This document shows, piece after piece, positions 16,999 through 34,148 of a stretch of 40,822 nucleotides of DNA (its first letter is position 1; each line of letters begins with the position of its first letter). The position numbers and the translations under genes were made by a program. Origin of the DNA: Treponema sp. (GTDB lineage: Bacteria > Spirochaetota > Spirochaetia > Treponematales > Breznakiellaceae). Location: the NCBI GenBank assembly GCA_031278815.1, contig JAITJS010000123.1, positions 1 to 40,822 on the forward strand, written 5' to 3'. The notes beneath the pieces are model-generated. The model searched no databases, was not told where the DNA came from, and worked only from the letters and a program-made list of their open reading frames with translations.

Positions 16999-17101
16999 GT
17001 TATTGATTTTGGGGAAGCAGGGTGCAATTCCCTCGCAAGCGCGTTACCGTAAAGCCGGGATACCACTATCATATACCTGCTGCGCACACCGGAGGATATG
17101 A
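16999..17101 (+). promoter_or_regulatory. Compact cobalamin riboswitch, copy 1
   Basis: The leader holds the corrinoid-aptamer core in recognisable form: a GGGAA...GGGTGCAATTCCC segment, then GCGCGTTACCGT and AGCCGGGATACC, a variant of the B12 box. The whole element is about 100 bases, much shorter than the classic 200-base form. After the core, TCATAT (17069-17074) can pair with ATATGA (17096-17101). The ribosome-binding GGAGG (17091-17095) lies in the resulting loop/stem edge, and the loop sequence TGCGCA could pair with the GCGC of the core. This would close the start site of the btuB-like gene when ligand binds. No T-run follows, so translational control is more likely than termination. 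Confidence 0.8.
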
Positions 17102-19141: not shown

Positions 19142-20306
19142 AGCGCAAACATTACACCGCTTGGTAAACGGGCGCTTGCTGCGGCGGGGTTACACCACCG
19201 GAACCTGTGCGGCTGCTGCGGCAGGGGCTGCGGCATGGATGCTGTTGCATCAATCCCCCTGTGGGACATGGCAGTTTACGACACAAAAAGGCATTGCCCT
19301 TACCCTTGCTATAGTGGACGCTTCTTTTTCTGCTCATACTGCTTCGTGCGGGGTCCGCAAAGACGCTGGGGATGATCCGGATGTTACGAACGGTATGGTG
19401 GTGTATGCCACGGTGTGCAAGACCGGCAAAGCTGGTATCTTTATTGAGGGCGGCCAAGGCGTGGGACGGGTAACCAAACCTGGGCTTGACCAGCCCGTAG
19501 GGGAAGCGGCTATTAATGCAGGCCCTCGCAAGATGATACAACGGGAATGTCAATCGGTTTGTGCTGATTGGGCTTACCACGGGGGCCTTCTGGTAACTAT
19601 CAGCATTCCTGGGGGAGCGGATCTAGCGGCCCGTACCTTCAACCCCCGGGTGGGGATCATCGGGGGTATTTCTGTACTGGGGACCAGCGGTATTGTGGAG
19701 CCCATGAGCGAAAAGGCCTATGCAGACACAATCCGAGTGGAACTCAATCAAATTCGTAGCGCCGATACACAGCATAAAAGGGAGGTGATCTTCACCATTG
19801 GTAATATGGGAGAGACCTTTGTGCGTGATACCTTGGGACTTTCCCTGTACCCCCGCGTTAAATGCTCGAATTTTATTGGAGAAGCCCTTGCTTCAGCAGC
19901 AGAGCTTAGTTTCAAACGGATACTGCTGGTTGGGCATATCGGAAAGCTCGTTAAGCTGGGCATGGGTATAGTCAATACCCATTCATCCCACGGAGACGCA
20001 CGGATTGAAACCTTGATCTGCTGTGCCCTTGAAGCCGACGCTTCCCTTGCCTTGCTCCATGCTATACAAGATTGTGTTACTACTGATGCGGCGCTTGATG
20101 TCTTGCGCCGGGGCTCGCTATTGCCACAGACCATGCACATACTGGGTAAACGCATTGATGCTACGCTCAGGCGCCGCCTCCCCCCTGAAATGGAAAGTGC
20201 CTTTATCTGTTTTGATAAAAAGCTCTCCCTCCCTGATAGACAGGGAGAAATCATTTGCCAAAGCCCTCATGCGGATACGCTGGTGGAGGTTTTTAAACAT
20301 GGGTGA
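19131..20306 (+). CDS. cbiD: Cobalt-precorrin-5B C1-methyltransferase CbiD
   Basis: CbiD methylates C-1 of the corrin ring in the anaerobic cobalamin route after loss of the C-20 fragment. The 391-residue protein has the family's N-terminal signature LRRGYTTGTCAAAA (residues about 16-30), the central PGGADLAARTFNPRVGIIGG and GTSGIVEPMSEKA segments, and the VGHIGKLVKLGMG segment. The start is a TTG at 19131, overlapping the receptor gene by 11 bases with an AGGGG five bases upstream. CbiD is diagnostic for the anaerobic (early cobalt) route. Confidence 0.93.
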   Translation: MNGEAQTLHRLVNGRLLRRGYTTGTCAAAAAGAAAWMLLHQSPCGTWQFTTQKGIALTLAIVDASFSAHTASCGVRKDAGDDPDVTNGMVVYATVCKTGKAGIFIEGGQGVGRVTKPGLDQPVGEAAINAGPRKMIQRECQSVCADWAYHGGLLVTISIPGGADLAARTFNPRVGIIGGISVLGTSGIVEPMSEKAYADTIRVELNQIRSADTQHKREVIFTIGNMGETFVRDTLGLSLYPRVKCSNFIGEALASAAELSFKRILLVGHIGKLVKLGMGIVNTHSSHGDARIETLICCALEADASLALLHAIQDCVTTDAALDVLRRGSLLPQTMHILGKRIDATLRRRLPPEMESAFICFDKKLSLPDRQGEIICQSPHADTLVEVFKHG

Positions 20307-21096
20307 AGTTCACTTTGTTGGAGCCGGCCCTGGAGCAGTGGATCTTATTACGCTGCGGGGTAAAATGCTGCTTGAAAGAGCTGATGTGATTATCTATACC
20401 GGCTCACTGGTCAACCCTTTGATCCTTGATGTTGCCAAAGAAACCTGTGTTACCCATAATAGCGCCTACCTTACGCTGGATGAAGTGATTACGCTTATGG
20501 TGGAAGCGGTGAATCGGGGCTTTGAAGTGGTCCGGCTTCATACCGGGGATCCCAGTCTCTACGGGGCCATACGGGAACAGATTGACCGTCTCAACAGGCT
20601 TGGCATTGCTTGGGATATTTGTCCGGGAGTGTCAAGTTTCTGCGCCGCCGCCGCCGCCCTGGGGGTGGAATTAACCCTTCCTTCAGTAAGCCAATCGGTC
20701 ATCATCACCAGATACCAAGGTCGGACCGAGGTGCCTGCTGCAGAGTCCCTTGCCTCCCTTGCGGTACATGGGGCCACTATGGTGTTTTTTTTAAGCGCCG
20801 GAATGGTAGATACCATTACCGCGGATCTTATATCCTCTGGAAGCTATTCGGCGGATACCCCCGCAGCGATTGTTTATAAGGTAACTTGGGCAGAGCAAAA
20901 AGTGGTCCGCGGTACCGTGGGAACTTTGAACGAAATGGCCCAGGCTGCGGGCATTACAAAGACAGCTCTGGTGGTGGTGGGTAAGGTCTTAGGTACCGAG
21001 TATGAGCTTTCCCGGCTGTATGCCCCTGATTTCTCTACAGCATACCGTCAAGGGTCTTCGGTTCCAAGGGCGGATACTGAAAAAGGGGACTTATGA
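20299..21096 (+). CDS. cbiF: Cobalt-precorrin-4 C11-methyltransferase
   Basis: CbiF (CobM in the aerobic route) adds the C-11 methyl group using S-adenosylmethionine. The 265-residue protein begins MGEVHFVGAGPGAVDLITL, the usual tetrapyrrole methylase start, followed by RADVIIYTGSLVNP, RLHTGDPSLYGAI and CPGVSSFCAAAAALG. The ATG at 20299 overlaps cbiD by eight bases. The same frame stays open for 92 codons upstream, but those residues are cbiD read in another frame. Confidence 0.94.
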   Translation: MGEVHFVGAGPGAVDLITLRGKMLLERADVIIYTGSLVNPLILDVAKETCVTHNSAYLTLDEVITLMVEAVNRGFEVVRLHTGDPSLYGAIREQIDRLNRLGIAWDICPGVSSFCAAAAALGVELTLPSVSQSVIITRYQGRTEVPAAESLASLAVHGATMVFFLSAGMVDTITADLISSGSYSADTPAAIVYKVTWAEQKVVRGTVGTLNEMAQAAGITKTALVVVGKVLGTEYELSRLYAPDFSTAYRQGSSVPRADTEKGDL

Positions 21097-21902
21097 AAGT
21101 TGCCCTGATTGCCGTATCAAAACAGGGAGCCGCTCTGGCCGCGGACTTACAAGCGCGTTTACTGGATTCAACTGTTTATAGCTACGCAGCCTATGCCTTA
21201 CCGGCGCACAGACCTTTTGAAAAATTAAGTTGTATTATCCAGGATTTATGGGAAAACTACGAAGGGCTGGTGTTTTTGTGTGCCGCAGGAATTGCCCTTC
21301 GCACCATCGCCCCCTTCATTACCTCCAAGTACCGCGACCCTGCAGTGGTCATGTGTCCTGAAACCGGTTCTTTTGCCGTTTCCCTGCTTTCAGGGCACGA
21401 AGGAGGAGCAAATGCTTTAGCCCAAAGCATAGCCGGATATATTGATGCCATCCCGGTAATAAGTACCGGAAGTGAAGCATCCCCGCGCATTATACCGCGT
21501 AACCTGGTACTTGGAATCGGCTGTAAGCGCGGTACCGAAAGCAGCCGAATCAAGGTAGCGGTAGAAGCGGTCTTTAAAAACCATGCGCTCTCGTCTTTGC
21601 GGATACAGAGCATCTGTACTATTGATATAAAAAAGAACGAACCGGGATTAATCTGCTTTGCTGAAGATTGTGGACTGCCTCTCTATTTTTTTACCGCCCA
21701 AGAACTGAACGCCCTCTGTGGTAATTTCAGCGCGTCTGATTTTGTGCGGGAAATAACCGGTACGGATACTGTCTGTGAACGGGCAGCCCTTGCCGGATGC
21801 AGCGTCAGCCTTAGGGGTATGAGTAGGGGGAAATTAATCGTTCAAAAAACTAGGCTGGATGGCGTTACCGTGGCGGTAGCAGAAAGAGCGATCAATGCAT
21901 AG
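21093..21902 (+). CDS. cbiG: Cobalt-precorrin-5A hydrolase CbiG, lacking the central domain
   Basis: CbiG opens the delta-lactone and releases the C-20 carbon as acetaldehyde in the anaerobic route. At 269 residues it is much shorter than the usual 330-360. The N-terminal domain is intact (LVFLCAAGIALRTIAPF, GSFAVSLLSGHEGGANALA), and the C-terminal domain begins at LVLGIGCKRGT. The central domain that normally lies between them, roughly 70-90 residues, is missing: VISTGSEA is followed almost directly by RNLVLGIG. The gene is in frame and overlaps both neighbours, so this looks like a real domain loss, not decay. Confidence 0.88.
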   Translation: MKVALIAVSKQGAALAADLQARLLDSTVYSYAAYALPAHRPFEKLSCIIQDLWENYEGLVFLCAAGIALRTIAPFITSKYRDPAVVMCPETGSFAVSLLSGHEGGANALAQSIAGYIDAIPVISTGSEASPRIIPRNLVLGIGCKRGTESSRIKVAVEAVFKNHALSSLRIQSICTIDIKKNEPGLICFAEDCGLPLYFFTAQELNALCGNFSASDFVREITGTDTVCERAALAGCSVSLRGMSRGKLIVQKTRLDGVTVAVAERAINA

Positions 21903-22626
21903 ACTCATGGTTGTCGGTATAGGACCGGGCAATGCGGTGAATATGACGGAAGCATGCCGTAATGCCCTTCTTGGTGCGGATGCTATCTTTGGTTATACCC
22001 CATACCTACAATTGCTCAAACCCTTGTTCCCCCATAAAACGTTTTTTGGAACAGGCATGAAAGGTGAAGTAGCCCGTTGCCGTGCAGCTTTGGGTCTTGC
22101 CGCAGAAGGCAAGGTCGTCTCTCTTGTTTCCAGCGGTGATGCGGGGATTTATGGTATGGCCTCTTTAGTTTATGAACTGTCCCCTGAATTCCCTTCCGTA
22201 ACCATTGAAGTAGTTCCCGGCATTACCGCTGCCATAAGCGGGGCTGCCCTGCTGGGATCACCACTGGGACACGATTTTGCGGTAATCAGTCTTTCGGATC
22301 TGCTTACTTCCTGGGACCTGATTGAAAAAAGACTCAGGGCCGTAGCAGCAGGGGACCTGGCAATCTGTATTTACAATCCTGCCAGTCACGGCAGAAGAGA
22401 CCACCTCAAACGGGCTTGTGATATATTACTTGAAATCCTGCCTCCTGACCGGGTTTGTGCCCTTGTTCGCAACATCGGACGTACCGAAGAAACCTATGCC
22501 CTTACAACCCTTGGAGCATTACGCACCAGGCAAGTCGATATGCTCACTACGGTCTTCATCGGTAATGCCAAGACACGGGTACTTAACGGTAAAATGATAA
22601 CACCCCGAGGTTACCGCCATGCATAG
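21895..22626 (+). CDS. cbiH: Cobalt-precorrin-3 C17-methyltransferase
   Basis: CbiH (CobJ homologue) methylates C-17 and contracts the ring in the anaerobic route. The 243-residue protein is a tetrapyrrole methylase: VVGIGPGNAVNMTEA at the N-terminus, VSSGDAGIYGMASLVYE, VVPGITAAISGAALLGSPLGHDF and YNPASHGRRDHL, all typical of the CobJ/CbiH group. It overlaps cbiG and cbiJ by eight bases each. Confidence 0.93.
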   Translation: MHRLMVVGIGPGNAVNMTEACRNALLGADAIFGYTPYLQLLKPLFPHKTFFGTGMKGEVARCRAALGLAAEGKVVSLVSSGDAGIYGMASLVYELSPEFPSVTIEVVPGITAAISGAALLGSPLGHDFAVISLSDLLTSWDLIEKRLRAVAAGDLAICIYNPASHGRRDHLKRACDILLEILPPDRVCALVRNIGRTEETYALTTLGALRTRQVDMLTTVFIGNAKTRVLNGKMITPRGYRHA

Positions 22627-23371
22627 ACTCATCATTTTTGGTGGAACCACTGAAGGACGCAGAATATGCCAATGGTGTACGAAACAGGGCATTGATTTTC
22701 TTTACTGCACCGCTACGGATCTGGGAGTTGAGCAACTCGATACGAATCGGGTGCGGGTAGGTCGCATTAAAGTTAAGGAAATGCGGGAGTTCTTAAAAGA
22801 AGAAGCCCCTGAACTGGTGATCGATGCCACACATCCTTACGCCGATAAAGTGAGCGCCCATATTGCTGCGGCTTGTTCTGCCGAAGGGATTGAGCGCTTG
22901 AGTGTGTTACGCCAGGCTTCTGATACATCCGGTTGTGAAATTTTCTTAAATGAAGATAGTCTTATTGCGTGGCTTACCAGCAAGAGCGGTGTCATTTTTT
23001 CTGCTACCGGGGTAAAAGAAGCGGCCCTGTTTACCCGTTTACCCGATTTTAAGGAACGGGTCTGGTTTAGACTGCTGCCTACGCTTGAAGGGCTCAAAAC
23101 CTGCCTTGAGGCGGGTTATCCCCGGGAACATCTGATTCTCATGTGGGGGCCCTTTTCAGATGAATTAAACAAGGCCATGTTTGCTGCGGTAGGCGCTTCA
23201 ATTTTGGTTACCAAAGATTCAGGGCACGAAGGAGGATTCCCCCAGAAGAAAAAAGCAGCCTTAGAACGGGGAATGCAAATCGCCGTAATGCAACGTCCTT
23301 TACAAGAGACCGGCTTTTCCTGTAATGAGGCAATTTTGGAAATTGAGAAAAAATTGGGACTCAGGCTATGA
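22619..23371 (+). CDS. cbiJ: Cobalt-precorrin-6A reductase
   Basis: CbiJ (CobK in the aerobic route) reduces the precorrin-6A macrocycle with a nicotinamide cofactor. The 250-residue protein has the family features IIFGGTTEGRRICQW near the N-terminus, ELVIDATHPYADKVSAHI, and the C-terminal VTKDSGHEGGFPQKKKAAL. It overlaps cbiH (eight bases) and the next gene (four bases, ATGA). Confidence 0.92.
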   Translation: MHRLIIFGGTTEGRRICQWCTKQGIDFLYCTATDLGVEQLDTNRVRVGRIKVKEMREFLKEEAPELVIDATHPYADKVSAHIAAACSAEGIERLSVLRQASDTSGCEIFLNEDSLIAWLTSKSGVIFSATGVKEAALFTRLPDFKERVWFRLLPTLEGLKTCLEAGYPREHLILMWGPFSDELNKAMFAAVGASILVTKDSGHEGGFPQKKKAALERGMQIAVMQRPLQETGFSCNEAILEIEKKLGLRL

Positions 23372-24564
23372 AAAAGATTATGATAATCGGTACTGGTCTT
23401 GGGCCAGATACGATTACTGCTGCAGGATGGAAGGCTCTTGATGAGGCGGAAGTCTGGTTCGGCTCTGAACGGTTGCTGGAATTATTCAAAAGTGCGGTGA
23501 AGCAAGAGAAGATTACCCTTCCCTTTTATACGAAAGACCGGATTATACAGAAGATAGATCAAAGTAACGCGCAGCAATTTGCGGTCCTGGTTTCCGGGGA
23601 TCCTGGTTTTTACAGCGCTGCCCACGAGCTTTACCCGGCCTTGTCTAAACTACAGGATTGTTCGGTTGCAATAATTCCGGGTATTTCTACGGCAAGCGCT
23701 TTTTTTGCACGCCTTGGTTTGCCCTGGCAAGATGCCTGTCTTTTCAGCGCCCACGGCCGGGACATCACCGGACTGGTTTCATTGGTAAGGCGGAATAGAA
23801 GGGTCTTTTGTATTACCGGAGGCAATACAAAAGACATAAGCGCCGTACTTGAAGATGCCGGATTTTCGTCCCTGGAGGTTTATGTGGGTGAGAATCTGGG
23901 ATTGGAACATGAGCGGGTTTCTCTCACGAACGTCAAAAAGCTTAGTTCCTTATGTCTTTCCTCCTTATCGGTGCTGGTTTTTGAAAACAAGCATCCTGAT
24001 GACCGGATTCGTTTCGGTATAGAGGATGAAGCCTTCAGCCGCCTAGAGGGTATACCCATGACCAAGGCAGCGGTGCGTGCAGTAGCGCTTGCAAAACTGG
24101 AACTAAGATCCGAAGATACCTGCTATGATATAGGCGCTGGGACCGGTTCTGTTTCGGTGGAAATGGCGTTGGCAGCCCATAAAGGACAGGTGTTTGCCAT
24201 TGAAAAGAACCCCGAAGCCTTACCGCTTATCCATAAAAACCGTAAACAATTCAACCTTGGAAATGTTATGGTTATTGGAGGGGAGGCCCCTGGCGCTTTG
24301 GCAAAGATACCGAATCCTGATGCTGTTTTTATTGGAGGAAGCAAGGGAAACATACAAGAAATTATCCAATGGGTAACTAAAAAAAATCCTGAAGTCCGCA
24401 TGGTCATTACGGCTATAACCATAGAAACTGTGCAAAGGGTCTTATCCTACCTGCCGGTGGAATTGATACAAGTTGCAGTAGCACGTTCAAAAAAAGCGGG
24501 ATCCCAGCATCTTTTAATAGCGCAGAATCCTGTTTTTATCATGTCGGTACAAGGGGGACGGTAA
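23368..24564 (+). CDS. cbiET: Fused cobalt-precorrin-7 C5-methyltransferase / C15-methyltransferase (decarboxylating)
   Basis: A 398-residue bifunctional enzyme. Residues 1 to about 200 are the CbiE tetrapyrrole methylase (MIIGTGLGPDTITAAGWKAL, LVSGDPGFYSAA, IPGISTASAFFARLGLPW). Residues about 215-398 are the CbiT class I methyltransferase (YDIGAGTGSVSVEMALAAH, VFAIEKNPEALPLIHKNRKQF, PDAVFIGGSKGNI). Together they methylate C-5 and C-15 and decarboxylate the C-12 side chain. The fusion is the same arrangement as CobL of the aerobic route, while the neighbouring cbiD and cbiG mark this pathway as anaerobic. Confidence 0.93.
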   Translation: MKKIMIIGTGLGPDTITAAGWKALDEAEVWFGSERLLELFKSAVKQEKITLPFYTKDRIIQKIDQSNAQQFAVLVSGDPGFYSAAHELYPALSKLQDCSVAIIPGISTASAFFARLGLPWQDACLFSAHGRDITGLVSLVRRNRRVFCITGGNTKDISAVLEDAGFSSLEVYVGENLGLEHERVSLTNVKKLSSLCLSSLSVLVFENKHPDDRIRFGIEDEAFSRLEGIPMTKAAVRAVALAKLELRSEDTCYDIGAGTGSVSVEMALAAHKGQVFAIEKNPEALPLIHKNRKQFNLGNVMVIGGEAPGALAKIPNPDAVFIGGSKGNIQEIIQWVTKKNPEVRMVITAITIETVQRVLSYLPVELIQVAVARSKKAGSQHLLIAQNPVFIMSVQGGR

Positions 24565-24570
24565 CCATAC

Positions 24571-25965
24571 ATGGGGAAGAGCATGGAGACAGAACACCAG
24601 GGTATGGCCCGTATGTTAATCACCGGAACCCATACGGGTTGCGGAAAAACCACCGTAAGTTGTGCCTTGCTGTGGGCATTCAAAGCGCGAGGTGTGCATA
24701 TTACGGCTTTTAAATGCGGACCTGATTATATTGACCCCATGTTTCACCGCTCGGTAACAGGAGTGCGGGCTTACAACCTAGACCCCTTCTTTGTGCAAGG
24801 TGAGGCTTTAAGGGTATATTTTGCCACGAAAATGCAGCGCAGGGGTCCTCTTGAAAACCCGTCCCTGGCAGTGTTGGAAGGCGCTATGGGGTATTATGAC
24901 GGTATCGGCGCAAGCTGCCAAGCCTCATCTTACGAGGTTGCCCGGATTACGGAAACGCCGGTCATTCTGGTGGTGGATATGCGTAGGTTAGGTAATTCTG
25001 CGTTTGCCTTGATTGAAGGTTTTGTGCATTACAAAGCAGATAACGGTATAGGCGGGATCATCTGTAACGGAATGAACAAAACCCGTTACCTGCAATTTAA
25101 GGTGGAACTGGAAAAACAGCAGGTACCCGTCTTTGGCTACCTTCCCCATAACCCAGCATGGCAGATAGAAAGCCGTCATCTTGGACTTACGACTACAACA
25201 GACATTCCGTTTTTACAAGAAAAACTTGCGGCTTTAGGCAAGCAGGCTGCGGAAACCATTGATGTAGAGGGTTTACTGGAATTGGCGAGGAGGGCGCCGG
25301 ATGTATCCAAGGGATCGGTACAAGGAGTAAGCAAAGTAACCGGCCCTAGGGTACGGCTTGCCGTTGCTTCTGATGAGAGTTTCTGTTTTCTGTATCATGA
25401 GAACCTTGAATTACTGGAAGACTTAGGCTGTGACCTGGCATTTTTTAGCCCTATGCGTGATACCAAGCTGCCGGAAGGTTCCTGCGGACTATTACTCTGT
25501 GGGGGATACCCGGAACTGTATGCACGTACATTAACCCAAAATGTCAGTATGCGCAGGGCAGTGCACAAGGCGATCTCAGGGCTTTTACCTACGATTGCCG
25601 AGTGCGGTGGTTTTTTGTATTTACATACCATGCTTGATGGACTGCCCATGGTCGGCGTGCTTGAAGCCCAGGCATTCAAGACAAAACAACTACAGCGTTT
25701 TGGGTATGTAACGTTACGGGCAGAAAAAGATACGCTCCTCTGTAAGGCAGGGGATTCCATAGGGGCCCATGAATTTCATTATTGGGAGAGTACGGACCCC
25801 GGCGGTGATTTTACCGCAAGCAAAAGCAGCGGAATCACGTACCCCTGTATTCATGCAAGTGACAGTCTTTATATGGGTTTTCCCCATCTCTATTTTCCGG
25901 CCAATCCTGATTTTGCCAAGGGTTTTGTTCAGAAAATGCAAGCATATCAAAAGGGGCAGGTATGA
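24571..25965 (+). CDS. cbiA: Cobyrinic acid a,c-diamide synthase
   Basis: CbiA (CobB) amidates the a and c side chains using glutamine and ATP. The 464-residue protein has the P-loop GTHTGCGKTTVSCALLWAF, KCGPDYIDPMFHR, the middle segment LEGAMGYYDG, and a C-terminal glutamine amidotransferase domain with LLCGGYPELYARTL and the nucleophile Cys in TIAECGGFLYL. Its start is six bases after cbiET, the first small gap in the run of overlapping genes; later in-frame ATGs are possible starts, since the P-loop begins only at residue 17. Confidence 0.93.
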   Translation: MGKSMETEHQGMARMLITGTHTGCGKTTVSCALLWAFKARGVHITAFKCGPDYIDPMFHRSVTGVRAYNLDPFFVQGEALRVYFATKMQRRGPLENPSLAVLEGAMGYYDGIGASCQASSYEVARITETPVILVVDMRRLGNSAFALIEGFVHYKADNGIGGIICNGMNKTRYLQFKVELEKQQVPVFGYLPHNPAWQIESRHLGLTTTTDIPFLQEKLAALGKQAAETIDVEGLLELARRAPDVSKGSVQGVSKVTGPRVRLAVASDESFCFLYHENLELLEDLGCDLAFFSPMRDTKLPEGSCGLLLCGGYPELYARTLTQNVSMRRAVHKAISGLLPTIAECGGFLYLHTMLDGLPMVGVLEAQAFKTKQLQRFGYVTLRAEKDTLLCKAGDSIGAHEFHYWESTDPGGDFTASKSSGITYPCIHASDSLYMGFPHLYFPANPDFAKGFVQKMQAYQKGQV

Positions 25966-26939
25966 TTTTTTTATATTCTACCGTAGCGCTGGGATTAGGA
26001 TTCATGCTTGATTTAATTTTTGGCGACCCCCAGGGATTTCCGCATATAGTAAGGCTCTTTGGTTTTTTAATTTCGACTTTGGAGCGGCTTCTTTGGAATG
26101 AAAAGGGTAATAACCGGCTCAATGGCCTTGTTTTTACCCTTCTGGTGTTGTTCCTTTGTTCGGGAATTCCTTTTTTGCTGCTCTTTTTTGCATATAGGTT
26201 CCACCCGGTGCTTGGTTTCTTCACAGAGACCTTCTTTTGTTATCAATGTATCTCGGTAAAAGATCTACGTGTGGAAAGCGAAAGGGTTTATAACGCGCTC
26301 AAGGCAGGAGATTTAGAGGGCGCCCGTTTTGCAGTTTCGCGGATTGTAGGCCGGGATACGGAAAGGCTGGACGAGGCAGGAGTTACTCGAGCGACCGTAG
26401 AGACCGTGGCTGAAAATACTTCAGACGGCGTCGGAGCTCCACTTTTCTACATGGCTTTAGGCGGAGGTGCTGCCGCTTGTTTTTATAAAGCTGCCAACAC
26501 GATGGATTCGATGGTTGGCTACAAGAATAATCGGTATATTCATTTTGGTTGTGCTGCCGCCCGTCTCGATGATGTGCTCAACTTTTTACCCTCCCGCCTT
26601 TCTGCGCTGGCCATGATTGCCGCAGCCTTTATGGTTCGTTATGACGGTAAAGGGGCCTTCCGTATTTGGAGACGGGACAGGCGCAAACATCCAAGCCCTA
26701 ATGCCGCACAAACAGAAGCTGCCTGTGCCGGAGCTTTAGGTTTGCGGCTTTCAGGTCCCGCTTACTACCATGGGGTTTGTGAAGGCAAGCCTGAAATCGG
26801 CGATCCTATCCATAGAATAGAGGAGAAGGATATCAAAAGAAGCATCACCTTACTCTATGGGGTGGCTTTTATCATATTTATTTTGTTAATGGGGTTACGT
26901 TTATGCCTTTACATGGCGGCGACATATACCGGTTTATAA
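25962..26939 (+). CDS. cbiB: Adenosylcobinamide-phosphate synthase CbiB
   Basis: CbiB is an inner-membrane enzyme that attaches the (R)-1-amino-2-propanol phosphate arm to adenosylcobyric acid. The 325-residue protein has hydrophobic segments at both ends and in the middle, the N-terminal LGFMLDLIFGDPQGFPH and the family core AENTSDGVGAPLFYMALGGG, KAANTMDSMVGYKNNRY and FGCAAARLDDVLNFLP. It overlaps cbiA by four bases and cobD by 37 bases. Confidence 0.94.
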   Translation: MIFLYSTVALGLGFMLDLIFGDPQGFPHIVRLFGFLISTLERLLWNEKGNNRLNGLVFTLLVLFLCSGIPFLLLFFAYRFHPVLGFFTETFFCYQCISVKDLRVESERVYNALKAGDLEGARFAVSRIVGRDTERLDEAGVTRATVETVAENTSDGVGAPLFYMALGGGAAACFYKAANTMDSMVGYKNNRYIHFGCAAARLDDVLNFLPSRLSALAMIAAAFMVRYDGKGAFRIWRRDRRKHPSPNAAQTEAACAGALGLRLSGPAYYHGVCEGKPEIGDPIHRIEEKDIKRSITLLYGVAFIIFILLMGLRLCLYMAATYTGL

Positions 26940-27973
26940 GGTCCGGGGGGATACAACTTGATTTTTCTGTAAATACCAATCCCCTGGGAATTCCTGATAC
27001 GGTTTTAGCAGCGCTTAAAAAACAGGTTTCTGATTTTGCCCTTTATCCTGATCCCTACTGCCGTACGCTTCGAACAGCCCTTGCCGCTTATGAAGGCATA
27101 AGTGAAAACGATATACTGTGCGGTGCCGGAGCATCTGATTTGATTTATCGCATTTGTTTATCCTGCCGTCCCCGCCGAGTTCTCATCGGGAATCCAACAT
27201 TTTCAGACTACGCTCTTGCTTCACAACTTGCAGGAGCAGAAGTGGTATCATATAGGTTATCAGAACACAATAATTTTCGTCTAACTGATACTGTTCTTGA
27301 AAAGATTAGCAAAGATCGTACCAATAAAATCGATATGGTTTTTCTCTGTAATCCTAATAATCCCACAGGGGTTTTGGTTGATCCTGTTCTGCTGGCAGAA
27401 ATTGTGCAGGAGTGTGAAAAATTAGATATTTTACTTGTGGTGGATGAATGTTTTTTACCCTTTACCAAGGCAAATTCCCTTGTTTTATCAAAGATGCCTA
27501 AAAATCTTGCGGTTCTCAAAGCCTTTACCAAAACCTTTGCCTTGGCGGGATTGCGTTTTGGTTATCTTCTTTCATCTAATAGAGCTTTGCTTAACATGGC
27601 GGCCCGTGCGGGATCCTGCTGGAATGTTTCGGTCCCCGCACAGACTGCCGCCCTTGCCGCGTTGGACTGTAGGCATCACCTACAAAAGGCAAACAAGCTT
27701 ATTGAAATAGAGCGGTCTTTTCTTTCACAGGGTTTACGTGCTCTCGGTGTTACGGTCTTTGACAGTGATGTCAATTTCTTGTTGTTTAAGATTGACCCTG
27801 CTATTGCTTTATATGACGCCCTTGTGGGAAAAGGAATTTTGATTCGTTCTTGCGAAAATTTTCGCGGTTTAGACCGGCGATACTATCGTATTGGGGTAAA
27901 AAACCATGAAGACAATGAACGGCTGCTTGCTGCTATCCAGGAAGTAGTAAACAAGTTACAAGAGGTAACATGA
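26903..27973 (+). CDS. cobD: L-threonine-O-3-phosphate decarboxylase, PLP enzyme
   Basis: CobD makes the aminopropanol phosphate linker that CbiB uses. It is a fold type I PLP enzyme of 356 residues. The start HGGDIYRF followed by LDFSVNTNPLGIP is typical of CobD. FLCNPNNPTGVLV and the PLP lysine region KAFTKTFALAGLRFGYLL follow. The start at 26903 lies 37 bases inside cbiB; it is kept because the conserved HGGDIYR would otherwise be lost. It overlaps cbiP by four bases. Confidence 0.92.
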   Translation: MPLHGGDIYRFIRSGGIQLDFSVNTNPLGIPDTVLAALKKQVSDFALYPDPYCRTLRTALAAYEGISENDILCGAGASDLIYRICLSCRPRRVLIGNPTFSDYALASQLAGAEVVSYRLSEHNNFRLTDTVLEKISKDRTNKIDMVFLCNPNNPTGVLVDPVLLAEIVQECEKLDILLVVDECFLPFTKANSLVLSKMPKNLAVLKAFTKTFALAGLRFGYLLSSNRALLNMAARAGSCWNVSVPAQTAALAALDCRHHLQKANKLIEIERSFLSQGLRALGVTVFDSDVNFLLFKIDPAIALYDALVGKGILIRSCENFRGLDRRYYRIGVKNHEDNERLLAAIQEVVNKLQEVT

Positions 27974-29436
27974 AAGCAAAACCGCTTATGATTCAAGGTA
28001 CCATGTCTAATGTGGGAAAGAGTCTTTTAACCGCGGGGTTATGCCGGATCTTGTGGCAAGACGGTTATAAGGTAGCTCCTTTCAAGGCGCAGAATATGGC
28101 CCTGAATTCATGGGTTACTGAAGAGGGACTAGAAATGGGGCGAGCCCAAGTTGTACAAGCAGCAGCGTGCTGTATTAAACCGACGGTATTGATGAACCCG
28201 ATCTTGTTAAAACCCACAACCGATATGGGATCCCAGGTAATTGTAAAGGGTGAAGTTTACGGGAATATGGAAGCCGGGGAATACTTTGCCCAAAAAAAAC
28301 TGCACAGGGCAGTAGCTTTTGAAGCCTACGAAAAGTTGGCTGAAGAATATGAAATCATTCTGCTTGAAGGGGCTGGAAGTCCTGCAGAAATTAACTTGCG
28401 CAAAGATGATTTTGTAAATATGGGGCTTGCAGAACAAGTGCGTACGCCTGTACTCCTTGTAGGGGACATTGATCGAGGTGGCGTATTTGCCCAACTGTAC
28501 GGAACCTTGCTGCTCCTTTCTGAAGATGAGCGGGATTTGGTAAAAGGGCTTATCATCAATAAATTCCGCGGCAACCGAGACTTATTGCAAGAGGGTCTTT
28601 CGATGATCGAGGAGCGCAGCGCTAAACCGGTACTGGGGGTAGTGCCTATGCTTGATGTAGATATTGAAGATGAAGATAGTCTTTCGAATCGATTTACCCA
28701 TAAAAGACAGGATGCTACCCTTGATATTGCCGTGATCCGATTGCCTAAAATTGCTAATTTCACGGATTTTTACGCGCTGGAAGCTACTGAGGGCCTTAGT
28801 ATCCGGTATATAGATGACGTCCAGGATTTACAAAAACCGGATATGCTCGTTATACCGGGCACCAAAAATACCATTTCTGACCTTAAATGGCTTCGTGAAA
28901 GTGGTATGGAGGCTGCAATTCTCCAGTTAGCATCCAAGCATACTCCTGTCTTTGGTATTTGTGGCGGATACCAGATGCTTGGTAAAGAGGTTATTGACGG
29001 CGAGGGCGTAGAGCTTGCAGGCGGCGGCAGTATCGCCGGTTTAGGGCTTCTTTCTATGAGTACGGTATTTACGAGAGAAAAAAAACGTTCTTTGGTAACG
29101 GGTACGGTTTCTATATTCGGCAGTAACCAGGTGTATGTGGAAGGTTACGAAATACACATGGGACACAGTCAATTTTCTTGTAGCGAAGCAGATAAGGCTT
29201 TGTTTATCCAACAGGGCAATGTATACGGTACCTATCTACACGGTTTTTTTGATACTCATGAATGCCGAAAGGCATTGATTGCAATGCTCTGCAAAAACAA
29301 AGGAATTCCGATCCCGAAGAGTAATTTTTTTGATTTAAAGCAGTACCGGGAAGAGCAATTTAATAGGCTTGCCGTAGCGCTGAGAAGGCATCTGGATATG
29401 GATTTTATATACAAAATAGTAGCAGAGGGTGTATGA
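27970..29436 (+). CDS. cbiP: Cobyric acid synthase CbiP
   Basis: CbiP (CobQ) amidates side chains b, d, e and g. The 488-residue protein has the N-terminal P-loop-like GTMSNVGKSLLTAGLCRI, KAQNMALNSWVT, LVGDIDRGGVFAQLYGT and LIINKFRG segments. Its C-terminal amidotransferase domain has LVIPGTKNTISDL, the nucleophile in FGICGGYQMLG and the catalytic histidine in GTYLHGFFD. Length is normal for the family. ATGA overlaps occur at both ends. Confidence 0.95.
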   Translation: MKAKPLMIQGTMSNVGKSLLTAGLCRILWQDGYKVAPFKAQNMALNSWVTEEGLEMGRAQVVQAAACCIKPTVLMNPILLKPTTDMGSQVIVKGEVYGNMEAGEYFAQKKLHRAVAFEAYEKLAEEYEIILLEGAGSPAEINLRKDDFVNMGLAEQVRTPVLLVGDIDRGGVFAQLYGTLLLLSEDERDLVKGLIINKFRGNRDLLQEGLSMIEERSAKPVLGVVPMLDVDIEDEDSLSNRFTHKRQDATLDIAVIRLPKIANFTDFYALEATEGLSIRYIDDVQDLQKPDMLVIPGTKNTISDLKWLRESGMEAAILQLASKHTPVFGICGGYQMLGKEVIDGEGVELAGGGSIAGLGLLSMSTVFTREKKRSLVTGTVSIFGSNQVYVEGYEIHMGHSQFSCSEADKALFIQQGNVYGTYLHGFFDTHECRKALIAMLCKNKGIPIPKSNFFDLKQYREEQFNRLAVALRRHLDMDFIYKIVAEGV

Positions 29437-30098
29437 ATTGGCAAGTAGTAAAACCAGCAGAAATTGAAGCAAAAAGTTTTGAAATTATTGCGCATACATT
29501 ACAGAGGCAAAAATTTTCCGACTCTTTAAGGTCATTAAAAACGCACGGGGGTGTAGAAATTATGCCGCTGCTACTTCGTATTATTCATACCACCGCAGAC
29601 TTCAGCATGGTGAAAAATTTGTCTCTATCCTATGGTGCTATTACCCAGGGGATAGATTCCCTGCGTACTGGCGCTACGATTGTTACCGATACAGAAATGA
29701 TAAAAGCAGGCATAGATAAAACAAGGCTTGCGAGCTGGGGAGGCAGATGTGTCTGTTTTATGACAGACCCGGAAGTAGTGGAAAATGCGAAAAAAAACAA
29801 CACCACCCGCGCCTATGCAGCCATGGATAAGGCTGTTTCCCTCAGTAAACCGCTTATCTTTGCCATAGGAAACGCCCCAACCGCGCTGGGACATTTATGT
29901 GAATTAGTAAGCTGCAGGGCGGTTCAACCATCCCTCATAATCGGGGTCCCTGTGGGATTTGTAAATGTTATCGAATCTAAAGAAATGCTTGAAAGTACCG
30001 GCGTACCCTTTATCACCATACGAGGCAGAAAAGGGGGGAGTACTGTGGCCGTATCAATCTGTAATGCCCTGCTTCGTTTAGCAGCAGCAGGAGCATAA
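29433..30098 (+). CDS. cbiC: Cobalt-precorrin-8 methylmutase CbiC
   Basis: CbiC (CobH) moves a methyl group from C-11 to C-12 to give cobyrinic acid. The 221-residue protein has the family's catalytic-histidine region LLRIIHTTADFSMVKNL, GATIVTDTEMIKAGIDK and AIGNAPTALGHL, and ends in GRKGGSTVAVSICNALLRLA. In reaction order it acts before CbiA, although it is encoded near the end of the biosynthetic run. Confidence 0.94.
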   Translation: MNWQVVKPAEIEAKSFEIIAHTLQRQKFSDSLRSLKTHGGVEIMPLLLRIIHTTADFSMVKNLSLSYGAITQGIDSLRTGATIVTDTEMIKAGIDKTRLASWGGRCVCFMTDPEVVENAKKNNTTRAYAAMDKAVSLSKPLIFAIGNAPTALGHLCELVSCRAVQPSLIIGVPVGFVNVIESKEMLESTGVPFITIRGRKGGSTVAVSICNALLRLAAAGA

Positions 30099-31157
30099 AT
30101 GCAGATTCAGGAACGAGATGCAATCGGTGAACATACCGTAAAACACAGACGCTGTATCATCATCGCTATCACCTTGGCGGTCCTATTGGTGCTTGCCTTG
30201 ACCGTGACCCTTACCTTAGGGGCGGTAAAACTTTCTATTATAGAAATAGGTAGCATAATTGTAGGAAAATGCAGCGGAAGCCCCCAGCTCTATGCCGGTA
30301 TTCCCCAGGGCCTCGTAGCGGTAATATGGGAACTCCGGTTACCCCGTATTATAAGCGGTATGCTTTGCGGTGCAGGACTTGCGGTAAGCGGTGTCATTTT
30401 TCAAGCTATATTGCAAAATCCCCTTGCTGATCCCTACACCCTGGGGATATCCACTGGCGCGGCCTTTGGCGCTTCCTTTGCCATATTCCTCAGTGTCAGC
30501 ACCGGTATGGTCCTATCAGTGCCATTTTTTGCCTTGGCCTTTGCGGCGCTTACCTTGGTCCTAGTTTTGCTGATTGCTGCCCGTGGGGGTGGTATGGAAA
30601 GCGGAGCCCTTATTATGTCAGGAATTATCGTAAGCGCGATCTTATCCGCCGGTATCAGTTTTATGAAAATGCTATCCGGTGAAAATGTGGGGGCCATTGT
30701 TTTCTGGCTTATGGGCAGTCTCTCGGCAAGAACCTGGAGTGATACAGCGCTGCTTATGATGATAATCCCGCCGGCTAGTATAGGGGCGGCATTTTTCTCA
30801 GCCCATCTGAACATACTTGCCTTGGGCAGCCGGGACGCACAGGCTCTGGGCGTTCAGGTTAAACCCACTCGCTTTCTCTATCTATTACTGGCCGCAGGCA
30901 TCATTGCCGCTTGTGTATCGGTCTGCGGAATTATCGGCTTTGTAGGGCTCATTGTCCCCCACCTTCTGCGCATGTCTTGTACGGCGGATAACCGCGTGCT
31001 TATTCCGCTGTCTGCCCTGGCAGGGGGACTGTTACTGTGTATGGCCGATAACGGCGCTCGGCTTCTTGGAACCGGTGAAATCCCGGTAGGGGTCCTTACC
31101 ACTTTACTGGGGGGACCTTTCTTTATTTTTATTTTCATGAGTCGAAGGAACCGGTAA
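30099..31157 (+). CDS. btuC: FecCD-family ABC permease, probable corrinoid importer
   Basis: A 352-residue polytopic permease of the BtuC/FecCD family with about ten hydrophobic segments. Recognisable parts are LRLPRIISGMLCGAGLAVSG, the QNPLADPYTLGISTGAAFGA loop, FWLMGSLSARTWSD and the C-terminal GFVGLIVPHLLRM. It begins on the base after the cbiC stop. Its ATPase partner follows three bases later, and a BtuF-like binding protein is encoded 2 kb downstream under a second cobalamin riboswitch. The substrate is inferred from this context. Confidence 0.9.
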   Translation: MQIQERDAIGEHTVKHRRCIIIAITLAVLLVLALTVTLTLGAVKLSIIEIGSIIVGKCSGSPQLYAGIPQGLVAVIWELRLPRIISGMLCGAGLAVSGVIFQAILQNPLADPYTLGISTGAAFGASFAIFLSVSTGMVLSVPFFALAFAALTLVLVLLIAARGGGMESGALIMSGIIVSAILSAGISFMKMLSGENVGAIVFWLMGSLSARTWSDTALLMMIIPPASIGAAFFSAHLNILALGSRDAQALGVQVKPTRFLYLLLAAGIIAACVSVCGIIGFVGLIVPHLLRMSCTADNRVLIPLSALAGGLLLCMADNGARLLGTGEIPVGVLTTLLGGPFFIFIFMSRRNR

Positions 31158-31160
31158 GGG

Positions 31161-31973
31161 ATGAGCCTTGTATCCGTAGAAAAGGCGTCATTCGCTTATA
31201 AAAAAGGAGTCTGTGCCCTTAACAACATCAGTTTTACGGTTGAAACCGGTGAACATATAGCCTTAATCGGTCCCAATGGCAGCGGAAAAACAACCCTTTT
31301 TAATCTCCTTGCCGGTTTTACCCGGGCCAAAACCGGGAGCATCACCTTCGCCGGTGTGGATATACAGGCCTATAGCCCCCCTGAACTGGCGAAACACCTC
31401 GCCTTGGTACCGCAACGGGTCTACCTCAATTTCCCCTATACCTGCCTTGAGACCGTTTTAATGGGACTGCACCCCTATCACCGGCATATACAAACAGAAA
31501 GCGCTCAAGCGCTGCAAAGCGCCCAGACCCTTATGGAACAAACCGAGGTCTGGCATCTGGCCGCCCAATTCGTTACTGAAATTTCCGGCGGAGAATTGCA
31601 GCGGGTCCTGCTGGCCCGTGCACTGCTCCAAGTGCTCCCCCAGGGCTTGGCCAGTACAGATCCGCCGTGCCATCGGGTCCTGTTGCTGGATGAAGCCTTC
31701 AGTTCCTTAGATATTGCGGCCCGTATCACCATGATGAAACTCCTCAATACCTTACGGGCAGTGTACGGCCTTACCATAATCGGTATCCACCACGATATAC
31801 CTATAGCCTTTGGTTTTACCCAGCGTATTCTTGCCCTCAGTCACGGTTCCCTGGTGGCCGATGGCAAGCCCGAGGTGATAGGTACCGAGGCTTTCTTTGC
31901 CCAGGTCTTTTCGGTACATGTGGAAATAATACCTGGTAAAGGGTTCTTGTTTGTAGACACCCTCACCGCCTGA
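31161..31973 (+). CDS. btuD: ABC transporter ATPase, probable corrinoid importer
   Basis: A 270-residue ATPase with Walker A GPNGSGKTTLFNLL (near residue 37), Q-loop region LALVPQRVYLN, signature motif SGGELQR, Walker B VLLLDEAFSSLD and the switch histidine in IGIHHD. It belongs to the FecE/BtuD group. It is the last gene of the first cobalamin operon. A 7-base inverted repeat (GGCGTGG at 31974-31980 with CCACGCC at 32007-32013) follows the stop, but without a T-run. Confidence 0.9.
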   Translation: MSLVSVEKASFAYKKGVCALNNISFTVETGEHIALIGPNGSGKTTLFNLLAGFTRAKTGSITFAGVDIQAYSPPELAKHLALVPQRVYLNFPYTCLETVLMGLHPYHRHIQTESAQALQSAQTLMEQTEVWHLAAQFVTEISGGELQRVLLARALLQVLPQGLASTDPPCHRVLLLDEAFSSLDIAARITMMKLLNTLRAVYGLTIIGIHHDIPIAFGFTQRILALSHGSLVADGKPEVIGTEAFFAQVFSVHVEIIPGKGFLFVDTLTA

Positions 31974-32044: not shown

Positions 32045-32073
32045 TTGACAAGGCTTCTGAGTAATGCTATGTT
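32045..32073 (+). promoter_or_regulatory. Sigma-70-type promoter for cbiK-btuF
   Basis: TTGACA (32045-32050) and TATGTT (32068-32073) are 17 bases apart. Transcription would start near 32080, at the 5' edge of the second riboswitch, as with copy 1. Confidence 0.7.
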
Positions 32074-32079
32074 GTATCT

Positions 32080-32182
32080 AACAGTTTTGAATTTGGGGAA
32101 GTAGGGTGCAATTCCCTCGCAAGTGCGTTACCGTATAGCCGGGATACCAAGATCATATATCTGCGCATACCGGAGGATATGA
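32080..32182 (+). promoter_or_regulatory. Compact cobalamin riboswitch, copy 2
   Basis: From about 32086 to 32182 this leader is nearly the same as the one before the btuB-like gene: GGGGAAGTAGGGTGCAATTC, GTGCGTTACCGT and AGCCGGGATACC. It carries the same closing stem, TCATAT (32153-32158) with ATATGA (32177-32182), around GGAGG (32172-32176). The core has UGCG where copy 1 has GCGC, and either could pair with the loop UGCGCA. The first start codons lie directly after the hairpin, so ligand binding should block translation initiation. Confidence 0.8.
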
Positions 32183-32257
32183 ATGAATTTCTTAGGACTC
32201 TGCAACGTATTTTGCCCCCTGTCAATGCTGAAACTATTTCAGGAGGCAGAATTATGA
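32183..32257 (+). CDS. Possible 24-codon leader peptide ahead of cbiK
   Basis: The riboswitch ribosome site GGAGG (32172-32176) is six bases from an ATG at 32183. That ATG opens a 24-codon frame starting MNFLGLCNVF and ending in TGA at 32255-32257, which overlaps the cbiK ATG (ATGA). cbiK has its own AGGAGG inside this frame. Riboswitch-controlled translation of the short frame could thus be coupled to cbiK. The alternative is an in-frame ATG at 32179, only two bases from GGAGG, that would add 25 residues in front of the CbiK signal peptide. No peptide homology is claimed. Confidence 0.3.
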   Translation: MNFLGLCNVFCPLSMLKLFQEAEL

Positions 32258-33132
32258 ATAATCTGCAAAAAATAGGAGGGGCCCTCATGTTGCTTCTCCT
32301 GGTACTTTCCTTTTTGAATTGTCGCAGTGTGGCTACCCAGTCGGTGAACCCAGAGAAACCGGTCATTCTGGTGGTAAGCTTTGGTACCAGCTACAATGAG
32401 TCAAGACAAAAAACCATAGGCGCCATAGAGGAAGCGATTGCCCATGCGTATCCCGCCTATTCGGTACGCCGTGCTTTTACCAGTCAAATCGTCATCGATC
32501 ACATTTACCAGCGAGATGGAGAGAAAATTGATAATGTTACTGAAGGGATGAACCGTCTGGTAGCAGAGGGGGTGAAGGACGTTATCATACAGCCTACCCA
32601 TCTTATGCAGGGCATAGAAGAAAACGAAATGCTATCCCAGGTAAAGCCCTTTGAAAGCAAGTTCAGGAGTATCAAATATGGCAAGCCGGTCCTTGCTTCT
32701 GAGGCGGATTATACCGCCCTGGTTACCATACTCAAGGACGGGACCAAAGCCTATGATACCCCTGATACGGCTCTGGTGTTTATGGGCCATGGGACCGAAG
32801 CTGCGTCTAATGCGGATTATACCAAACTGATAGCGCTTTTTAGAGAAAAGGGGTTCTCCAATTATTTCATAGGCACGGTTGAGGCGAGCCCTTCATTAGA
32901 TGATGTGATAGACGAGCTTCAGGATGCAGGTCTTGAAAAGGTCATCCTCTTCCCCCTTATGATTGTAGCTGGGGATCATGCCAATAACGATATGGCCGGA
33001 GACGAAGAGGATTCATGGAAATCTATACTCACCGCTGCAGGCTTTTCGGTGCAAACCGTTCTTCGGGGGCTAGGGGAATATCCTGATTTACAAGCCCATA
33101 TCGTGCAGCACGTAGCTGATGCCATGCAATAA
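32254..33132 (+). CDS. cbiK: Exported, predicted lipoprotein form of anaerobic cobaltochelatase CbiK
   Basis: CbiK inserts cobalt into sirohydrochlorin at the start of the anaerobic route. From the ATG at 32254 (AGGAGG seven bases before) the product has 292 residues. Residues 1-23 are a signal sequence: a short basic start, the hydrophobic core GGALMLLLLVLSFLN, then Cys23, an acceptable spirochaete-type lipobox. The mature part is a normal CbiK: VVSFGTSYNESRQ, H179 in FMGHGT, GTVEASP and H242 in GDHANNDMAGDE. These correspond to the metal-handling histidines of the family. The enzyme would therefore sit in the periplasm, like the known periplasmic CbiK of Desulfovibrio. No cytoplasmic CbiK or CbiX is in the window. 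Confidence 0.88.
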   Translation: MNNLQKIGGALMLLLLVLSFLNCRSVATQSVNPEKPVILVVSFGTSYNESRQKTIGAIEEAIAHAYPAYSVRRAFTSQIVIDHIYQRDGEKIDNVTEGMNRLVAEGVKDVIIQPTHLMQGIEENEMLSQVKPFESKFRSIKYGKPVLASEADYTALVTILKDGTKAYDTPDTALVFMGHGTEAASNADYTKLIALFREKGFSNYFIGTVEASPSLDDVIDELQDAGLEKVILFPLMIVAGDHANNDMAGDEEDSWKSILTAAGFSVQTVLRGLGEYPDLQAHIVQHVADAMQ

Positions 33133-33206
33133 AGCATGCCCTAACCCCGGGGTACCGGTATTCCCCCCCTGGGGTTATGCTGCATCATGGAAAGGGTCCA
33201 ACCACT

Positions 33207-34148
33207 ATGGGAAGAATCCTTTGTATTATAGGGGCAAGCCTCTTACTGCTGGGTGCTTGTGTAAAACAAGGGCAAAAACAGGTACAAACCAGAGAGGGTA
33301 TTACTTTCATTGATGATGATGGAAATACCGTTACGATAGAGCAGCCCTTTCGTCGTATTATTGCATTGTATTCTGCCCATACGGAGAATCTTTTTTCAAT
33401 CGGGGCTGGGGACTTCGTCATAGGGGGGCATAAAACCTGTACATACCCGGCCCAAGCAGATGTACTGCCGAAATTCGATTACACCGGAGACCCTGAATAT
33501 ATCATTGCCGAGGCCCCAGACCTGGTACTCATCCGTCCCTTTATCCGGCGTTCCCACCCGGCGTACATTGCAGAGCTTGAAAAAGCGGGGATCTTGGTGG
33601 TTTCTTTATACCCTGACAGCATGGCAGACTTCGATGGTTATATACGCGTTCTGGCCCTCCTTACCGGTAAGGAAAAGGAAGCAAACGAAAAACTCCTCGC
33701 CTTTCATGATACCTTGCAGAGGCTGAGCACTCATACCGCGGGCGTAGAGAACAAACAAACCGTCTTTTTTGAGTCCACTGCGGCAGAAAACCGCACCGTA
33801 TCTGCAGCTTCTTTTCCTGCTTATGCTATTGAAATCGTCAACGCGAGTAATATAGCGGCCAACGCAGAACCAATAAGCAAAGGAAGTTCGATCGCCCTCT
33901 ATGGTACGGAAAAAATTCTGCAAAATGCCGACCGCATAGACGCCTACATTGTGCAACAAGGGGCCATGAATCGGGCAAAAACCATAGAAGATCTGCTTAA
34001 ACGGCCCGGTTTCAGTACGATAAAAGCCCTTCGGGAAAAGCGGGTTCTTTTTATAGATGAAAAACTGATTTCTTCTCCCACCTTTCGGTATATTGAAGGG
34101 GTTTCCCAAATCGCGGCCTTCCTGTACCCAGAGGTTTTTATCCCCTAG
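33207..34148 (+). CDS. btuF: BtuF-like periplasmic corrinoid-binding lipoprotein
   Basis: The binding-protein partner expected for the BtuCD-type importer. From the ATG at 33207 the product has 313 residues: a lipoprotein signal (MGRILCIIGASLLLLGAC) and then a class III periplasmic-binding fold with IEQPFRRIIALYSAHTENLF, DPEYIIAEAPDLVLIRP and a C-terminal YIEGVSQIAAFLYPEVF. An ATG at 33177 in the same frame would put ten residues before the signal, so the later start is preferred. It follows cbiK under riboswitch 2, separate from its transporter genes. Substrate is inferred from context; other metal-chelate ligands are possible. Confidence 0.82.
   Translation: MGRILCIIGASLLLLGACVKQGQKQVQTREGITFIDDDGNTVTIEQPFRRIIALYSAHTENLFSIGAGDFVIGGHKTCTYPAQADVLPKFDYTGDPEYIIAEAPDLVLIRPFIRRSHPAYIAELEKAGILVVSLYPDSMADFDGYIRVLALLTGKEKEANEKLLAFHDTLQRLSTHTAGVENKQTVFFESTAAENRTVSAASFPAYAIEIVNASNIAANAEPISKGSSIALYGTEKILQNADRIDAYIVQQGAMNRAKTIEDLLKRPGFSTIKALREKRVLFIDEKLISSPTFRYIEGVSQIAAFLYPEVFIP

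Follow-up and report, generated by a model that had tools for sequence, protein, structure and literature searches.

Anaerobic B12 synthesis is usually drawn as a wholly cytoplasmic pathway, and the locus described here raises the question of where cobalt is inserted when the chelatase that would insert it seems to be sent out of the cytoplasm. The locus is part of a 40,822-nucleotide stretch of a Treponema sp. contig (JAITJS010000123.1), referred to as the window. An earlier note, made from the sequence alone, had described there a CbiK with a lipoprotein signal, beside a BtuF-like lipoprotein and behind a cobalamin riboswitch, and had proposed a role in corrinoid uptake. The features of the window used in this analysis are:

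17000..17071, plus strand: second AdoCbl-II-type riboswitch (32.0 bits, E 1.1e-5), before the TonB receptor/cbi operon
17105..19141, plus strand: TonB-dependent receptor (BtuB-like)
19131..30098, plus strand: cbi operon with cbiD, cbiF, cbiG, cbiH, cbiJ, cbiET, cbiA, cbiB, cobD, cbiP and cbiC (no cbiL)
30099..31157, plus strand: BtuC-like FecCD permease
31161..31973, plus strand: BtuD-like ATPase
32045..32073, plus strand: promoter-like site TTGACA-17-TATGTT with TG before the second hexamer (10/12; shuffle mean 0.6), directly 5' of the aptamer
32084..32153, plus strand: AdoCbl-II-type cobalamin riboswitch aptamer (RF01689; 31.3 bits, E 1.4e-5 in 401 nt)
32183..32257, plus strand: putative 24-codon leader ORF whose TGA overlaps the cbiK ATG (ATGA), with Shine-Dalgarno GGAGG at 32172-32176
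32254..33132, plus strand: CbiK, predicted exported lipoprotein sirohydrochlorin cobaltochelatase (292 aa; signal residues 1-22, lipid Cys23)
33177..34148, plus strand: BtuF-like substrate-binding lipoprotein (Peripla_BP_2, 65.5 bits; LLGAC lipobox), directly after cbiK

Family and active site

The ORF at 32254-33132 matches the CbiK family over its full length (PF06180, 4.1e-82, 275.9 bits against a cut-off of 26.2, profile positions 3-261 of 262), as a class II cobaltochelatase should. Its score with the NCBIfam equivalog SiroCoChCbiK is 243 bits, below the cut-off of 400, so the protein is a homologue beyond the narrow equivalog, and that model does not certify its exact function or substrate. 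The catalytic residues H179, E210 and H242 in the C-terminal half are intact. They align with H145/E175/H207 of Salmonella CbiK and with H154/E184/H216 of Desulfovibrio vulgaris CbiKP, which bears out the two conserved histidines named in the earlier note. Across 110 related CbiK loci both catalytic histidines and E122 are present in every one, and E210 in 108. From these residues, the prediction that the window CbiK is catalytically competent is well supported.

Salmonella CbiK (1QGO/2XWP) is the best sequence match among solved structures (4.2e-49) and shares the catalytic His, Glu and His. It begins at the catalytic core and has no signal, whereas the window CbiK carries a lipoprotein signal and is partnered by BtuF.

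The start codon was assigned using the Shine-Dalgarno sequence AGGAGG at 32241-32246, which is well spaced from 32254. An alternative start at 32179 (317 aa) was rejected, as its Shine-Dalgarno is only 2 nt away from it. The signal region is retained with either start.

Export signal in the window and its relatives

The N-terminus, MNNLQKIGGALMLLLLVLSFLNC23, is a lipoprotein-type signal by our in-house rule: it has the lipobox FLNC23, K6 as the basic n-region and a hydrophobic core. The signal sequence ending at Cys23 that had been read earlier therefore passes this rule. The rule made zero lipoprotein calls when run on BtuD and the cytosolic Cbi proteins nearby; its looser SPI/TM class made false calls on CbiA.

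No well-placed start was found downstream of the signal in the window ORF. A survey of export signals covered 110 CbiK loci, 30 from Spirochaetota (the window included) and 80 from named genomes; the latter, being the best matches to the window protein, bias the sample towards the window's own clade. An export signal was found in 101 loci, including four (L020, L026, L058, L096) judged to be lipoproteins by eye because the rule chose a weak start; 8 loci have none and 1 is ambiguous. This retention rules out both a chance signal or annotation slip and an anomaly confined to the window genome. In many relatives a long, acidic linker separates the lipid Cys from the CbiK domain, which rules out a simple downstream start in them. 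Export of CbiK, as predicted for the window and its relatives, is well supported by these signals.

Two variations in architecture were seen in the survey. Five loci (L048, L056, L063, L109, L111) have a tandem pair of CbiK domains, apparently in one exported polypeptide. Nine treponeme and related loci (L019-L021, L023, L025, L028-L030, L032) have an additional N-terminal segment ahead of the CbiK domain, 'LIDAIY...KAWDKLSDAQKELVEGENADP'.

A tree of CbiK sequences has a main exported clade with support 97/87 that holds 98 of the 113 rows, 95 of them exported, and covers Bacillota, Spirochaetota and Actinomycetota. With midpoint rooting the window CbiK is nested among Bacillota sequences, which suggests horizontal transfer, in a direction that depends on that rooting. 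Salmonella CbiK, CbiKP and FetB all lie outside the main exported clade on long branches, so the window CbiK is not of the CbiKP clade; FetB is joined with CbiKP and shares no clade with the window protein, again on long branches.

Known exported relatives

Exported class II chelatases are already known, namely FetB/IhtB and CbiKP. CbiKP of Desulfovibrio vulgaris (2XVX-2XVZ) is a class II chelatase with the same catalytic residues as the window CbiK. Desulfovibrio has a second, cytoplasmic CbiK, for which there is no counterpart in the window's own genome. CbiKP itself is reportedly periplasmic, a result attributed to Lobo et al. in 2008. Desulfovibrio was the precedent named in the earlier note; it stands as one, but closer or more abundant examples come from FetB/IhtB of Porphyromonas and the large clade in Bacillota.

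FetB/IhtB of Porphyromonas gingivalis (9B86) is a lipoprotein of the CbiK family whose gene shares a locus with those for a TonB receptor and an ABC importer (PMC10913741). A review, in its passages on this protein, describes FetB as inserting Mn into protoporphyrin and assigns FetB/IhtB to haem and Mn-porphyrin handling, not to B12 synthesis (PMC13402209).

Riboswitches and operon layout

Both window aptamers score below the RF01689 gathering score of 36.5. A whole-window Rfam scan with the gathering score as cut-off detected no riboswitch; focused searches recovered both, and the one at 17000-17071 closely resembles the one ahead of cbiK. Aptamers of the AdoCbl-II type at the same position in L039, L041 and G212 do reach the gathering score, so the earlier reading of a cobalamin riboswitch ahead of cbiK is upheld by relatives. 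A cobalamin riboswitch was found near CbiK at 10 of the 11 loci scanned.

TTGACA sites stand at the equivalent position in G212 and L039, and both have terminator-like hairpins behind the aptamer; no terminator was found behind the cbiK aptamer in the window. Neither free folding of the window cbiK leader (z -0.07) nor the hairpin between cbiK and btuF (z -0.80) was informative. The overlap of the leader ORF with cbiK recurs in two close relatives, as ATGA in G366 and TAATG in L038, and suggests translational coupling with cbiK.

The Peripla_BP_2 match confirms the BtuF-like neighbour of the earlier note. A survey of this adjacency, also called for there, found the cbiK-btuF pair again in G366, G212, L038, L039, L040, L041 and L043. 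The unit made up of cbiK and btuF is probably transcribed apart from the upstream cbi operon.

CbiK as the only recognisable cobaltochelatase

The window's own genome (90% complete) has one CbiK, and the search for a second cbiK or a cbiX that had been proposed found none; CobN is also absent. All three families were searched in 31 exported-CbiK genomes, and 26 have no CbiX, CobN or second CbiK. The exceptions are G131 (CobN), G405 and G406 (CbiX), and G348 and G149 (short CbiK/CbiX-like). Several of the absences in metagenome-assembled genomes could be assembly gaps; the genomes with no other known cobaltochelatase include G212, a single contig of 4,059,867 bases. Without catalysis, cobalt is inserted to a negligible extent at the buffered Co(II) level inside cells (PMC7689651), so a chelatase is needed.

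One way to supply it would be cobalt insertion in the cytoplasm, by a Met8/CysG-type dehydrogenase, by CbiK before its export or by a minor unprocessed form, with the lipoprotein as an auxiliary. Met8-type enzymes can have chelatase activity, which makes internal insertion possible where Met8 exists, and a Met8 homologue is present in the own genome, G212, G191 and G131. No clear Met8/SirC precorrin-2 dehydrogenase was found in the ring-makers G366, G312, G274, G377, G074 and G351, and its lack in G312, G274, G377 and G074, all exported-CbiK ring-makers, argues against this route. CbiK acting before export or unprocessed is hard to reconcile with an ORF that offers no good start beyond the signal, and with the long linkers of many relatives. 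We consider cytoplasmic insertion unlikely.

Corrin-ring synthesis or corrinoid uptake

The earlier note had proposed that CbiK is a partner of corrinoid uptake at the surface, remetallating corrinoids or loading BtuF; ring synthesis would then use another cobalt route. The operon with BtuF, the nearby BtuCD and TonB receptor and the AdoCbl riboswitches all agree with such a role, and outside Spirochaetota an ABC importer is the commonest CbiK neighbour (of the 71 exported loci there, 58 have importer genes close to CbiK).

The distribution of CbiK argues for ring synthesis. Among 393 Spirochaetota genomes, the ring-synthesis gene CbiD is found in 33 of the 35 with a strong CbiK (E below 1e-20) vs 16 of the 358 others (Fisher p 1.5e-33, with no adjustment for relatedness), and in 23 of the 24 classified as exported-CbiK. 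A pure uptake helper would be expected also in B12 importers that have no ring genes. This hardly occurs: a strong CbiK is found in 2 of the 344 Spirochaetota genomes that have no CbiD, so transport alone fails as an explanation. The active site is also of the sirohydrochlorin chelatase type, and most exported-CbiK ring-makers have no other cobaltochelatase family that could serve the ring. The uptake role is thus less supported than it had seemed, and we think it improbable. The other suggestion of the earlier note, that with this as the cell's only CbiK a periplasmic step would be required, appears to fit better, and far beyond the own genome.

In some Bacillota loci (L047, L054, L065, L090) the exported CbiK is accompanied by a protein with weak similarity to NEAT (E 0.005 to 6e-8), together with a Peripla_BP_2 lipoprotein, a FecCD permease and an ATPase. 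This set is possibly a tetrapyrrole-binding surface system. The NEAT domain is known for haem binding. It is quite unlikely that the exported CbiK is a FetB/IhtB-like enzyme exchanging or removing metal on haem or porphyrins for iron or porphyrin supply, with an incidental riboswitch link, because the NEAT-like protein and the precedent of a CbiK-family lipoprotein in a TonB-receptor/ABC locus are set against a usual context of cobalamin riboswitches and cbi genes, a strong CbiD association and the placement of FetB with CbiKP outside the main exported clade (on long branches).

Tetrapyrrole supply

HemC is absent from 56 of 80 CbiK genomes. Of the 23 Spirochaetota genomes that have an exported CbiK and a completeness of 90% or more, 16 have no HemC, and 15 of those 16 are CbiD-positive. 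G377 (100% complete) has CbiD, CbiL and the exported CbiK, but HemC is absent, there is no clear Met8, and nothing CobA-like was found outside its cbi cluster. Ring-makers that have no HemC must acquire a tetrapyrrole externally, and that their sole chelatase is outside too is the main ground for the explanation we prefer. Lack of HemC may simply be common among treponemes. A cytosolic CbiK is found in three other ring-making treponemes that have no HemC (G019, G031, G165), so this lifestyle does not depend on export of CbiK.

HemC is present in the window's own clade (G000, G366, G212). The own genome has HemA, a HemC-CobA-HemD fusion and Met8, and in G212 hemB, cobA-hemD, hemC and met8 lie in one group from which hemA is missing. 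G212 is possibly Treponema primitia ZAS-2, and its missing hemA fits the reported need for ALA. Feeding ALA to T. primitia is reported to raise its corrinoid output (PMC6461909). Should G212 be that strain, the pathway is completed by a genome with a solely exported cobaltochelatase, and corrinoid made from fed ALA would also agree with cytoplasmic insertion.

Shelton et al. (2018) described tetrapyrrole precursor salvagers, which keep the corrin-ring genes and have no early tetrapyrrole genes; the parts of the paper on this lifestyle name it and show ALA use, and give no late-tetrapyrrole uptake route or exported chelatase (PMC6461909). With its hemA and hemC-cobA-hemD the own genome is not such a salvager, and relatives such as G377 and G371 fit the description for HemC.

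The pathway of the own clade lacks one expected enzyme. CbiL, the C20 methyltransferase, is absent from the whole genomes of G000, G366 and the single-contig G212 by PF00590 and TIGR01467. PF00590 finds just five methylases in each genome, assigned in the own genome to CobA, CbiF, CbiH, CbiE and RsmI, and TIGR01467 gives only weak cross-matches. A CbiL hidden in gaps of the G212 operon was rejected by sequence inspection, as the gaps encode CobO/BtuR-like and TonB-like proteins. The missing CbiL is either a pathway gap right after the chelatase step or a sign of an unknown replacement.

Proposed route of cobalt insertion

By combining these results, we are led to suspect that the one enzyme of the cell recognisable as inserting cobalt for corrin synthesis is a lipid-anchored, exported class II cobaltochelatase, and that it acts outside the cytoplasm. 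We put this at a little short of an even chance, with the site of catalysis, the substrate and the import of the cobalt product being what we infer. A sirohydrochlorin-type tetrapyrrole would be present outside the inner membrane, either leaked or exported by the cell or scavenged from neighbours. The anchored CbiK would insert Co2+, the BtuF-like lipoprotein would bind the cobalt product for import by BtuCD, and cytoplasmic Cbi enzymes would complete the ring. The AdoCbl-II riboswitch would reduce expression whenever the cell has ample B12.

The own genome and G212 have HemC, CobA and Met8 and can make sirohydrochlorin inside; for them the proposed route needs its exit from the cell, and no exporter for sirohydrochlorin was identified. 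As a general statement about a large group of gut and termite-gut anaerobes, that cobalt insertion of anaerobic B12 synthesis takes place on an anchored CbiK outside the inner membrane, followed by ABC import of the cobalt tetrapyrrole, is a tentative proposal that we hold to be somewhat doubtful. If it is true, the B12 pathway is intercompartmental, and organisms that have no HemC could start from scavenged sirohydrochlorin.

Implications

No description of exported class II chelatases as the only B12 cobaltochelatase across phyla was found among the open-access papers retrieved, which is weak evidence. Treponema primitia and Ruminococcus flavefaciens are cultured, so the proposal is directly testable; R. 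flavefaciens FD-1 has an exported CbiK and no HemC. If true, it would give a mechanism to the precursor salvagers already described, and one step would be mis-assigned wherever a genome survey takes 'cbiK present' to mean that synthesis in the cytoplasm is complete. Should many gut ring-makers have their sole cobaltochelatase outside, the pathway crosses the membrane and tetrapyrroles would be shared goods in the gut.
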